DNA of 64,000 nt, taken from the NCBI RefSeq assembly GCF_900111745.1, contig NZ_FOIJ01000001.1, forward strand, positions 558,001-622,000, written 5' to 3'. The translations under genes and the position numbers were made by a program. Below, piece by piece: positions 52,741 through 57,794 of this stretch (the stretch's first letter is position 1; the number at the start of each line of letters is the position of its first letter). The notes beneath the pieces were generated by a model. The model was not told where the DNA came from. It saw only the letters and a program-made list of their open reading frames with translations, and did no database searches. The DNA is from Stigmatella erecta (GTDB lineage: Bacteria > Myxococcota > Myxococcia > Myxococcales > Myxococcaceae).

Positions 52741-54129
52741 TCAGCTCTTCTTGCCCTTGCCCTTCAGGTGGGGCTTCTTGCGGGCCTCGCGCTTGGCCTG
52801 GCCCGGCCGCGCCCGGAAGAGCAGCCGCAGGGGCACCCGCAAGTCGAACGTCTTGCGCAGCTGGTTGGTGATGTACCGCTTGTACATGTCCGGCACGCGC
52901 TCGGGGTTGTTGCACGTGAGGGCAAAGGTGGGCGGCGCCGTGCCCACCTGGGCGATGTAGTACAGGCGCAGGGGCTTGCCGGCGACGATGGGGGCCGGGT
53001 TCGAGTCCACCATGTGCTCCAGCAGCCGGTTGAGCTGCGGGGTGGGCGCCCGGTACCGGAACTGCTCGGCCAGCTCCACGGCGATGTCCACCACCTTCTC
53101 CACCTTGGAGCCCGTCAGCGCCGAGGTGAAGATGATGGGCGCGTAGCCCACGAACTTCAGCGAGTGCTTGAGCGCCTCGCGGTAGGCCTCCTGCCGGCGC
53201 TGGTCCGTGCCGATGAGGTCCCACTTGTTCACCACGATGACGAGCGCCCGGCCCTTGTCCTCGGCCAGGCCCGCCAGCTTCGCGTCCTGGTCCACCGCGG
53301 GCTCGGTGGCATCCATGATGAGCACCGCCACGTCGCTGCGGTCCATCACCTTGAGCGCCGACACCACGGAGAACTGCTCCACCCGGTGCGCGATGGAGCG
53401 CTTGCGCCGGATGCCCGCCGTGTCCGTGAGGATGAGCTTGTGGCCCTTGTAGGTGAGCGCCGAGTCGATGGGGTCTCTCGTGGTGCCCGGCACCTCGCTG
53501 GCCACCACCCGCTTCTCCTTGAGGATGGCGTTCACCATGGTGCTCTTGCCCACGTTGGGCCGGCCAATGATGGCCACCCGGAGGGTGCCGTCATCGGGGA
53601 GCACCTCGGCGTCCTCGCCCTCCTGCTTCGGCGGGAGCCGGTCCAGCACCGCCTCCACGAGCTGGGGCACGCCCAGGGCGTGCTCGGCCGACAGGGGCAT
53701 CACCTCGCCCAGCCCCATCCGGAAGAACTCCCCGGAGAGCGCCTGCATGGCATCCGAGCCGCTGTCGAGCTTGTTGGCGGCCACCAGCACGGGCTTGCCG
53801 CTCTTGCGCAACAGCTCCGCCACCGCCTCGTCCGCGGCGGTGAGCCCCGCGCGCCCGTCGGTGACGAAGAGGATGACGTCACACTCCTCCACGGCCAGCT
53901 GCGCCTGCTCGCGCACCTGCTTGAGCAGCGAGTCCTTCTCGCCCGGGACGAAGCCGCCCGTGTCGATGAGGGTGAAGGTGCGATCCCCCCACTGCGCGTC
54001 CGCGTAGTGGCGATCCCGCGTCACGCCGGGCTCGTCCTCGACGAGCGCGAGCCTCCGCCCGGCGAGCCGGTTGAACAGCGTGGACTTGCCCACGTTGGGG
54101 CGACCGACGATGGCGACCAGCGGTTTCAT
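52741..54129 (-). CDS. der: ribosome-biogenesis GTPase Der
   Basis: Double GTPase needed for 50S assembly. The 462 residues hold two G domains, each with GRPNVGKST (8-16 and about 195-203), DTGG and DTAG switch motifs and NKxD (ANKLDSG and VNKWDL), then the KH-like C-terminal domain with LNRLLEHMVDSNPAP and a basic tail rich in Lys. Its ATG shares the last base of the era stop (TAATG), so translation is coupled. Downstream are the YfgM-like and BamB-like genes. Confidence 0.96.
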   Translation of the reverse strand: MKPLVAIVGRPNVGKSTLFNRLAGRRLALVEDEPGVTRDRHYADAQWGDRTFTLIDTGGFVPGEKDSLLKQVREQAQLAVEECDVILFVTDGRAGLTAADEAVAELLRKSGKPVLVAANKLDSGSDAMQALSGEFFRMGLGEVMPLSAEHALGVPQLVEAVLDRLPPKQEGEDAEVLPDDGTLRVAIIGRPNVGKSTMVNAILKEKRVVASEVPGTTRDPIDSALTYKGHKLILTDTAGIRRKRSIAHRVEQFSVVSALKVMDRSDVAVLIMDATEPAVDQDAKLAGLAEDKGRALVIVVNKWDLIGTDQRRQEAYREALKHSLKFVGYAPIIFTSALTGSKVEKVVDIAVELAEQFRYRAPTPQLNRLLEHMVDSNPAPIVAGKPLRLYYIAQVGTAPPTFALTCNNPERVPDMYKRYITNQLRKTFDLRVPLRLLFRARPGQAKREARKKPHLKGKGKKS

Positions 54130-55070
54130 TACTCGTAACCCAGCTTCTTGAGCCCTTCGGGGCGCTCGCTCCAGCGAGGCTCCACCCGGACCCGGAGCGA
54201 GAGATAGACGTGCGCACCCAGCAGCCGCTGGATGGCCTTGCGCGCATCGGTGCCGATGGTCTTCAGCATCTGGCCCTGCTTGCCGATGATGATGGCCTTC
54301 TGGCTGTCGCGCTCCACGTAGATGGAGGCGGCGATGCGGATGAGCCCCGCGAGCGGCCCCGGCGGCGCATCCGGCCGCGGCTCGCGCTCGGACTCGTCGA
54401 ACACCTCCACCAGTACCGCGGTGGAGTACGGGATTTCCTGCCGGCAGTGCCGGAGCACCTGCTCGCGGATGTACTCGGAGACCAGCGTGCGCTCCTGCTG
54501 GTCGGTGAGCATGTCCTCGTCGAAGATGCGCTCGCCCTCGGGCAGGTGCTGCAGCACCACCTGGAAGAGCCGGTCCACCCCGTCCCCCTCCCGCGCGGAG
54601 ATGGGCACCACCTCCGCGAAGGGGAACTCGGTGCGGTACATGTCGATGAGCGGCAAGATGAGCGACTTGGGCAGCGTGTCGATCTTGTTGATGACCAGGA
54701 AGGTCGGCTTGCCCATCTTCTGCAGCCGCTCGAGGATGGTCCGGTTGCCGGGGCCCACCTCCAGCTTCTCCCCGCCCGGGATTTCCACGACGAAGAGGAC
54801 CAGGTCCACTTCCTCGGCCGCCTGGAGGGCCGTCTCCACCATGTAGCGGTTGAGCTCTCCCTTGGCCTGGTGGATGCCCGGCGTGTCGATGAAGGCCACC
54901 TGGCCCTCCGGGCGCGTCACCACGCCCAGGATGCGGTTGCGGGTGGTCTGCGGCTTGGGGGAGACAATGGCGATCTTCTCGCCCGTCAATTGATTGAGCA
55001 GCGTGCTCTTGCCCACGTTGGGGCGCCCAATGAGCGCGGCAAAGCCACTGCGGTAGGTCTTCGAGGCCAT
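54129..55070 (-). CDS. era: GTPase Era
   Basis: Binds 16S rRNA near its 3' end and aids 30S maturation. The 313-residue protein has the G1 GRPNVGKST (15-23), TTRNRILGV switch I, DTPGIHQAKGEL, NKIDTL and a KH domain with GKQGQMLK (GxxG). ATG 55070 matches the family start; the frame upstream to 55214 is occupied by a decayed cyclophilin copy and is not part of Era. It is coupled to der by overlap. Confidence 0.96.
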   Translation of the reverse strand: MASKTYRSGFAALIGRPNVGKSTLLNQLTGEKIAIVSPKPQTTRNRILGVVTRPEGQVAFIDTPGIHQAKGELNRYMVETALQAAEEVDLVLFVVEIPGGEKLEVGPGNRTILERLQKMGKPTFLVINKIDTLPKSLILPLIDMYRTEFPFAEVVPISAREGDGVDRLFQVVLQHLPEGERIFDEDMLTDQQERTLVSEYIREQVLRHCRQEIPYSTAVLVEVFDESEREPRPDAPPGPLAGLIRIAASIYVERDSQKAIIIGKQGQMLKTIGTDARKAIQRLLGAHVYLSLRVRVEPRWSERPEGLKKLGYE

Positions 55071-55164
55071 CGGTCTGGAGATGATCTGGGGACCGCCCTC
55101 TCGGAAGGCCCCGTGGGACTGCGGCGACTGAGGCTCCCCTGCCCGCCTTCCCGGCGGGCGAGTG

Positions 55165-55287
55165 ACTGCGGAGCCGTGGAGATGGCGATCCACCCCCTCA
55201 GAGCCCTTTACCACCTCGCCGAAGATGGTGTGCCGATTGTTGAGGGGGGTGGGCGCCCCAGGGATGAAGAACTGCGGTGGCGCACAA
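55165..55287 (-). pseudogene. decayed partial copy of the cyclophilin gene
   Basis: Bases 55202-55274 align closely with 55475-55550 of the intact cyclophilin gene: 41 of the first 45 bases are identical, with one codon missing later. The encoded peptide reads QFFIPGAPTPLNNRHTIFGEVVKG against QFFITTSTPAHLNNRHTIFGE in the gene. Past this point homology continues (GAGGxGGTGGA, GCCATCTCCA) but with a one-base insertion near 55188. It has no start and lies 12 bp after the cyclophilin stop, so it is a remnant of a partial tandem duplication. Confidence 0.65.
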
Positions 55288-55298
55288 ATCCTTACCCG

Positions 55299-55985
<687 letters not shown>

Positions 55986-56028
55986 GGGTTCCGAACCTAC
56001 TCGCCCCCCTCCCCCCGTCCAAGGGGTT

Positions 56029-56748
56029 TCACTTGGGGTCGTCCTTGCGAAGCATGTCCAGGGTGGCCCGGGCGGCTGCCTGCTCGGCCTCCTTCTTGTT
56101 GCGGCCAGTGGCGCGCGCGTACAGCTCCGAGCCGATGGAGACCTCCACCTCGAAGGTCTTCTCGTGGTCCGGCCCCACCTCGGCCACCACCCGGTAGCGC
56201 GGGGGCACCTTCAGCCGCACCTGCGCGTCCTCCTGGAGCTTCGTCTTGTAATCCAGGCCGCTGCGCCCCTGGGCCACCCCGTCCAGGGCCTCGGCGAAGT
56301 GCTGGTCCACCAGCGTCATGACGGGCTCCATGCCCCCGCCCAGGAACACCGCGCCAATCACGGCCTCCAGTGCGTCGGCGAGCAGGGAGTTCTTCTCCCG
56401 CCCCCCGGTCATCTCCTCGCCCCGGCCCAGCAGGAGCATGGCCCCCAGGCCCAGCCGCCGGGCGATGCGCGCCAGCCCCTCCTCGTTGACGATGAGGGCG
56501 CGCAGCTTGGACAGCTCGCCTTCGGCCGCCAGGGGGAAGCGCTCCATCAACCGGTGGCTGATGGCCAGGTCCACCACCGCGTCCCCCAGGAACTCCAGCC
56601 GCTCGTTGTCCTGGAGCCCCGCGTCCCGGTGCTCGTTGAAGTAGCTCTTGTGGGTGAGCGCCGCGAGCCCCAGCTCCTTGCGGCCAAACGGCACCCCGAG
56701 CCGGAGCTCCAGCGACTGGACGCGCTCTTGGAGGCTCTGCTTGTCCAC
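56029..56748 (-). CDS. rnc: ribonuclease III
   Basis: Cuts double-stranded RNA in rRNA and mRNA processing. The 239-residue enzyme has the signature NERLEFLGDAVVD (48-60) with catalytic Glu and Asp, ADALEAVIGAVFLGGG for the second acid pair, and a C-terminal dsRNA-binding domain (about 165-235, KTKLQEDAQVRLKVPPRYRVV, GRNKKEAEQAAARATL). GTG 56748 is the start. It follows meaB by 3 bp and precedes the cyclophilin and era genes. Confidence 0.95.
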   Translation of the reverse strand: MDKQSLQERVQSLELRLGVPFGRKELGLAALTHKSYFNEHRDAGLQDNERLEFLGDAVVDLAISHRLMERFPLAAEGELSKLRALIVNEEGLARIARRLGLGAMLLLGRGEEMTGGREKNSLLADALEAVIGAVFLGGGMEPVMTLVDQHFAEALDGVAQGRSGLDYKTKLQEDAQVRLKVPPRYRVVAEVGPDHEKTFEVEVSIGSELYARATGRNKKEAEQAAARATLDMLRKDDPK

Positions 56749-56751
56749 GCG

Positions 56752-57794
<1,043 letters not shown>

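Follow-up and report, generated by a model that had tools for sequence, protein, structure and literature searches.

The stretch of DNA between a cyclophilin gene and era to which an earlier note drew attention is, judged from its sequence, almost certainly a decayed pseudogene of cypB, which was the second member of a tandem cyclophilin pair between rnc and era. The era leader that follows it probably mimics the binding site of Era on 16S rRNA (helix 45 plus GAUCACCUCC) in the Myxococcales, and we consider it probable that both readings hold together. The window analysed here comprises 64,000 nt (G000:C1:558001-622000) of a draft genome of 9.2 Mb. The cypB remnant shows a small tandem gene array turning over in the ordinary way and accounts for the confusing repeat before era; the leader matters more than the remnant. 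If the mimicry is true, the leader would sense free 16S 3' ends by direct feedback, and rRNA mimicry would extend from ribosomal proteins to an assembly GTPase.

A repeat search of the window paired 55189-55245 with 55462-55518 (57 nt, 88% identity, spacing 273). Aligned locally with the cyclophilin gene next to it, the stretch scored 95, whereas 1000 dinucleotide shuffles averaged 19.6 and reached 33 at most, so that the pairwise alignment proposed in the earlier note is significant and the repeat of cyclophilin DNA beside era is real. The limits that fit the remnant best are 55178-55296 on the minus strand, a slight shift from the 55165-55287 first given. The lost codon that had been described is present, as 3 nt missing directly before CTCAAC in a hand-anchored alignment; no inserted base was found as such, and the frame changes instead at an internal deletion junction near 55275. 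What had been read as a decayed partial duplication of the cyclophilin gene is indeed decayed cyclophilin DNA, but diagnostic sites trace it to cypB and not to the neighbouring cypA.

The intact neighbour, cypA (55299..55985, minus strand), is an open reading frame for a cyclophilin-type peptidyl-prolyl isomerase of 228 aa that matches PF00160 with an E value of 2.3e-46. The cypB remnant (55178..55296, minus strand) was delimited by alignment with the cypB of G004 and G005, by diagnostic sites and by a weak PF00160 match. It consists of about 20 nt of the 5' end of the gene (55277-55296), 89 nt of the 3' half (55186-55274) and a third piece of eight coding bases from near the 3' end (55178-55185). 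Its frame matches PF00160 at an E value of 5.9e-4 and 20.5 bits, below the cut-off of 21.7, over about 33 of the 159 profile positions. The remnant is cyclophilin DNA, from a place where relatives carry intact tandem copies, and it differs from a functional member of the family in having neither start nor stop, a frame changed by internal deletion, and no intact domain.

A recent partial duplication of the neighbouring cypA would account for the 57-nt identity with that gene, yet it is hard to credit in view of the sites at which the two genes differ. At 12 positions that separate four cypA from three cypB sequences of the genus (with the 3-nt gap placed by hand), the remnant of G000 is cypB-type at 10, cypA-type at one and otherwise at one; that of its sister G003 is cypB-type at 10, never cypA-type, and otherwise at two. 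An automatic alignment that includes the flank gives 19 cypB-type, 4 cypA-type and 7 other sites of 30 in G000, and 28, 1 and 6 of 35 in G003. The core of the remnant agrees with G005 cypB at 73/81 sites versus 62/81 with its own cypA, and in G003 the corresponding figures are 60/69 and 48/69. The surviving 5' piece matches cypB at 19/20 positions and cypA at 15/20, the 3' flank also matches that of cypB, and a whole cypB occupies the same place in relatives. The diagnostic sites refute derivation from cypA, barring gene conversion of all of them.

Descent from cypB, an intact orthologue in the same place in relatives, and disabling lesions (loss of the start, an internal deletion with a change of frame, loss of the stop) together identify a cypB pseudogene. 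The remnants of G000 and G003, whose cypA proteins are 99.6% identical, have in common a net loss of 14 nt that removes the cypB stop, and thus at least the loss of the stop predates their split. Their internal deletions differ in the alignment, which indicates that deletion continued separately afterwards. We infer that cypB became dispensable and then decayed by deletion.

Relatives with a whole cypB have the gene order rnc-cypA-cypB-era. The upstream gene of this block in the window is rnc (RNase III; 56029..56748, minus strand), an open reading frame with orthologues in the family search. The two intact copies that the earlier note suggested looking for stand between rnc and era in four of the seven genomes of the genus (G001, G004, G005 and G006); G002 has cypB only, and G000 and G003 have cypA plus a differently deleted wreck of cypB. 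The layout was read in 81 of 96 family genomes, in which a single contig carries both rnc and era (G015, with rnc cut by a contig end, was excluded). Among these the slot holds no cyclophilin gene in 5, one in 16, two in 44, three in 14, and one plus a remnant in 2 (G000 and G003). As the slot varies from zero to three cyclophilin genes across these genomes, the loss of cypB is unexceptional, one among several. Our literature searches found no paper on this array.

A tree of 148 proteins, from which the two remnant rows were excluded and in which two rows with an in-frame stop were entered with X, places 42 of 58 last copies and 7 of 16 single copies in one group (support 99/90) that includes the cypB of G004, G005 and G002. 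In genus g38, 16 last copies fall among first copies, of three-gene arrays, and not with cypB. This indicates that the history of gain and loss in the array is longer and that copies in the same place are not always orthologues. Two single genomes bear other marks of turnover. G061 (locus L200, one of the 44 with two genes) has a deletion of about 147 nt that removes the last (3') part of cypB as well as some of the era gap but spares the GATCATCTCC before era. G083 (locus L222, one of the 16 with one gene) still has, as a relic in the gap before its single gene, 97 nt (96% identical) from the start of a first cyclophilin; here the other gene of the pair was lost, in another genus.

The gene era (54129..55070, minus strand), recognised by its open reading frame, domain match and open-frame comparison, with PDB relatives 3r9w/3r9x and 3iev, encodes 313 aa from a likely start at the ATG of 55068-55070. 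Its frame does run into the stretch, as had been noticed: it stays open through the remnant for 389 codons in the window. The warning that the stretch could mislead calls of the era start is justified by this open frame. The open frame measures 313-315 codons in six genomes of genus g8, and because these frames permit no extension, the ATG at 55070 is most likely the start. The remnant of G003 is in another frame, one that terminates within era. Era does not include the remnant as a conserved part, and a conserved cyclophilin-Era fusion was rejected from the lengths of the era open frame and the layout of the array across relatives.

Comparison of the two sisters also marks the border between remnant and leader. 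From CCATCTCC to the start of era, G000 and G003 each have 115 nt, with 2 substitutions and no indel; the remnant before CCATCTCC differs by several indels (116 versus 122 nt). Read from this alignment, decay stops at the era leader, with no leader indel between the sisters. The gap between cypB and era has, across the seven genus members plus G020, a consensus fold of three helices, and 5 of its 23 pairs show changes on both sides, all five in the era-proximal stem. The first stem-loop of the gap (CCCGCC...GGCGGG; 55141..55159, minus strand), drawn from the alignment and the consensus fold, is kept in all eight of these genomes.

The leader element itself (55077-55112, minus strand), which lies outside the coordinates first given, consists of a stem-loop and, after it, GATCATCTCC, 6 nt upstream of the era ATG. 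The stem-loop (55087..55112), defined by consensus fold, arm swap and pair types, is the proposed mimic of 16S helix 45, and GATCATCTCC (55077..55086), defined by motif searches, is the proposed mimic of the 16S 3' tail GAUCACCUCC. The consensus of the tail across leaders is GATCAYCTYC (in RNA, GAUCAYCUYC), with the start codon mostly 0-18 nt downstream. The 16S tail was taken from seven of eight other family genomes, because RF00177 detected no 16S gene in the draft genome to which the window belongs; in these seven the 16S rRNA ends in GTAGCCGTAGGGGAACCTGCGGCTGGATCACCTCCTTTCT, that is, helix 45 within what we take to be its limits, and then GGATCACCTCC, with the ten bases of the leader consensus.

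The available text of a review on Era (PMC10582724) states that the KH domain of Era reads GAUCA, above all the two adenines, binds the CCUCC that follows and contacts the base of helix 45; a figure legend there identifies structure 3r9x as Era together with h45 of 16S rRNA. Both adenines of GAUCA are retained in the GATCATCTCC of the window. Along its length, the Era of the window aligns with structures 3r9w/3r9x and 3iev, and the alignment takes in a loop GKQG that we read as the GxxG loop of the KH domain. The element precedes the gene for the binding protein, resembles its rRNA site in sequence in 77 of 133 leaders, and has an rRNA-like structure with covariation, as seen in arm swaps, pair types and changes on both sides of pairs. 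A known Rfam element was rejected as an identity for the leader: Rfam 15 gave two matches in 54000-57000 of the window, far under their gathering scores, and none at the leader. A sigma-70 promoter or an intrinsic terminator was likewise rejected, as none was found at the leader.

Chance, or sequence merely inherited with no function, would be a very unlikely origin of the leader motif given how often it recurs. With at most one mismatch to GATCACCTCC, it lies no more than 78 nt from the Era G1 codon in 77/133 era leaders of the order, and in 30 of these there is no mismatch. None of 1000 permuted 10-mers reaches this count (mean 0.6 genomes), and the best of them are register shifts of the same element. 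The set of 133 excludes 6 of 58 loci that were not orientable (G033, G119, G135, G030, G029 and G035). A looser pattern, written after the family data had been seen, occurs within 170 nt in 87/133 leaders versus 0.4 expected from shuffles, some of these matches lying in cypB coding DNA. Within 78 nt it occurs in 85/133, in 16 genera and three families (74/93 in the family, 11/40 in the rest of the order). In the window this pattern is commoner than chance, with 9 occurrences in 128,000 positions versus 1.6 in shuffles, and that density would predict 0.6 leader matches within 78 nt, versus the 85 found. It has no occurrence in the 201,354 positions of loci L322-L351. The carriers belong to one order, relatives do not count as independent cases, and the hypothesis was derived from the same data, all of which speaks for a motif of chance or mere inheritance; against it stand the spread over genera and families, the permutation result, and retention of the motif while the stems turn over with their pairing kept.

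The pairing was examined by exchange between genera. When the 5' region was taken from other genera, native pairing was stronger on average in 16/16 genera (Wilcoxon 1.5e-5), with up to 32% of swaps reaching the native mean in single genera (g8) and 25% in g1. The sequence of the stem differs between genera and its pairing is retained, and GC, CG, AT and TA pairs are all seen at stem positions. Stems that end 0-3 nt ahead of the motif outperform 200 shuffles (p<0.05) in only 48/85 leaders; the genus medians of this test combine to 1e-9, a value to be read with the genera being related and hence not independent. The fold energy has a z below -2 in only one of four leaders, and the -0.91 of the window is unremarkable. 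Leader stems are poor in several g38 genomes (G083, G086, G087 and G095-G099), and G036 has none. MAFFT did not align the leader stems, and the invariant columns of an alignment whose rows were chosen by motif were excluded as evidence.

How such an element might work follows the known binding of Era to rRNA. We think it probable that Era binds its mRNA leader when free 16S 3' ends are scarce and so shuts off its own translation, and autogenous control by Era is the likeliest mechanism that we infer from the sequences. Era that finds no free 16S 3' end would bind the leader of its own mRNA as it binds 16S rRNA, and Era seated on the initiation region would block translation initiation. Pre-30S particles would supply free 16S ends, upon which Era would leave the leader and era would be translated. 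The CCTCC of the leader resembles an anti-Shine-Dalgarno sequence, stands at the Shine-Dalgarno place and is unable to pair with the 16S tail, which would favour mimicry over an initiation signal.

Alternatively, the leader may be constrained in some other way, as a site for another protein that binds helix 45, as a processing hairpin for RNase III, or as a DNA operator. Such a role seems unlikely to us, although rnc belongs to the same block, a leader hairpin is cleaved by RNase III in E. coli according to the accessible parts of two papers (PMC10582724, PMC8708148), and helix 45 is bound by other proteins too. The element precedes era and not rnc. Its stem varies in sequence and keeps its pairing, which favours RNA over a DNA operator. 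The bases conserved are those that Era reportedly reads, as far as the accessible review text goes (PMC10582724). The products of rsmA and rbfA also act at helix 45, and the motif is missing from the 300 nt read in 16/16 leaders of these genes themselves.

Mimicry of the Era site, our preferred reading, has precedents in the rRNA-mimic leaders of ribosomal protein genes (L20, S15 and S4 in the available portion of PMC7247131), where an mRNA leader likewise looks like the site on rRNA that the product of the downstream gene binds. The difference is that era encodes an assembly GTPase and not a ribosomal protein, and that its binding to the era leader is predicted. The word era is missing from the main text of that paper, which describes 20 new ribosomal leaders. 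In the gamma-proteobacterial rnc-era operon, as presented in the accessible parts of PMC10582724 and PMC8708148, rnc and era also form one block under post-transcriptional control, which is here proposed; there, however, RNase III cuts a site upstream of rnc, whereas the leader described here lies directly before era and copies the target of Era itself. The same portion of PMC10582724 attributes control of gamma-proteobacterial era to RNase III cutting and translational coupling, and mentions autoregulation only for RNase III. Among the titles and beginnings of abstracts covered by our searches, no report of Era controlling its own mRNA was found; subscription papers fell mostly outside these searches, which hence give no proof of novelty.

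Leaders beyond the family and leaders that have no motif outline where the element occurs. Genus g27 of another family (f5), read after the idea had formed, has the motif abutting or overlapping the ATG in 9/9 leaders. Seven of these nine have a stem of 12-15 bp that ends 0-1 nt before the motif, and the other two (G125 and G127) do no better than shuffles. In genus g26 of family f3 the motif is present in two of three genomes, one of these with a stem. The looser pattern is missing from 48/133 leaders of the order, including 13/13 genomes of the other f5 genera and 9/9 of f7; G037, of f5 outside g27, has GAACACCTCC, with one mismatch, near the start. Outside the order it is missing in the 11 leaders read, from 36 genomes with an era match. 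Of the 19 family genomes that have no motif, 17 were measured: in 12 of them no more than about 25 nt separate era from the last cyclophilin gene, and in 5 the gap is wider. G010, G106, G107, G109, G110, G111 and others are of the kind in which era stands close to the last cyclophilin gene and the leader element is missing, and in these it is as if translational coupling had replaced the leader element.
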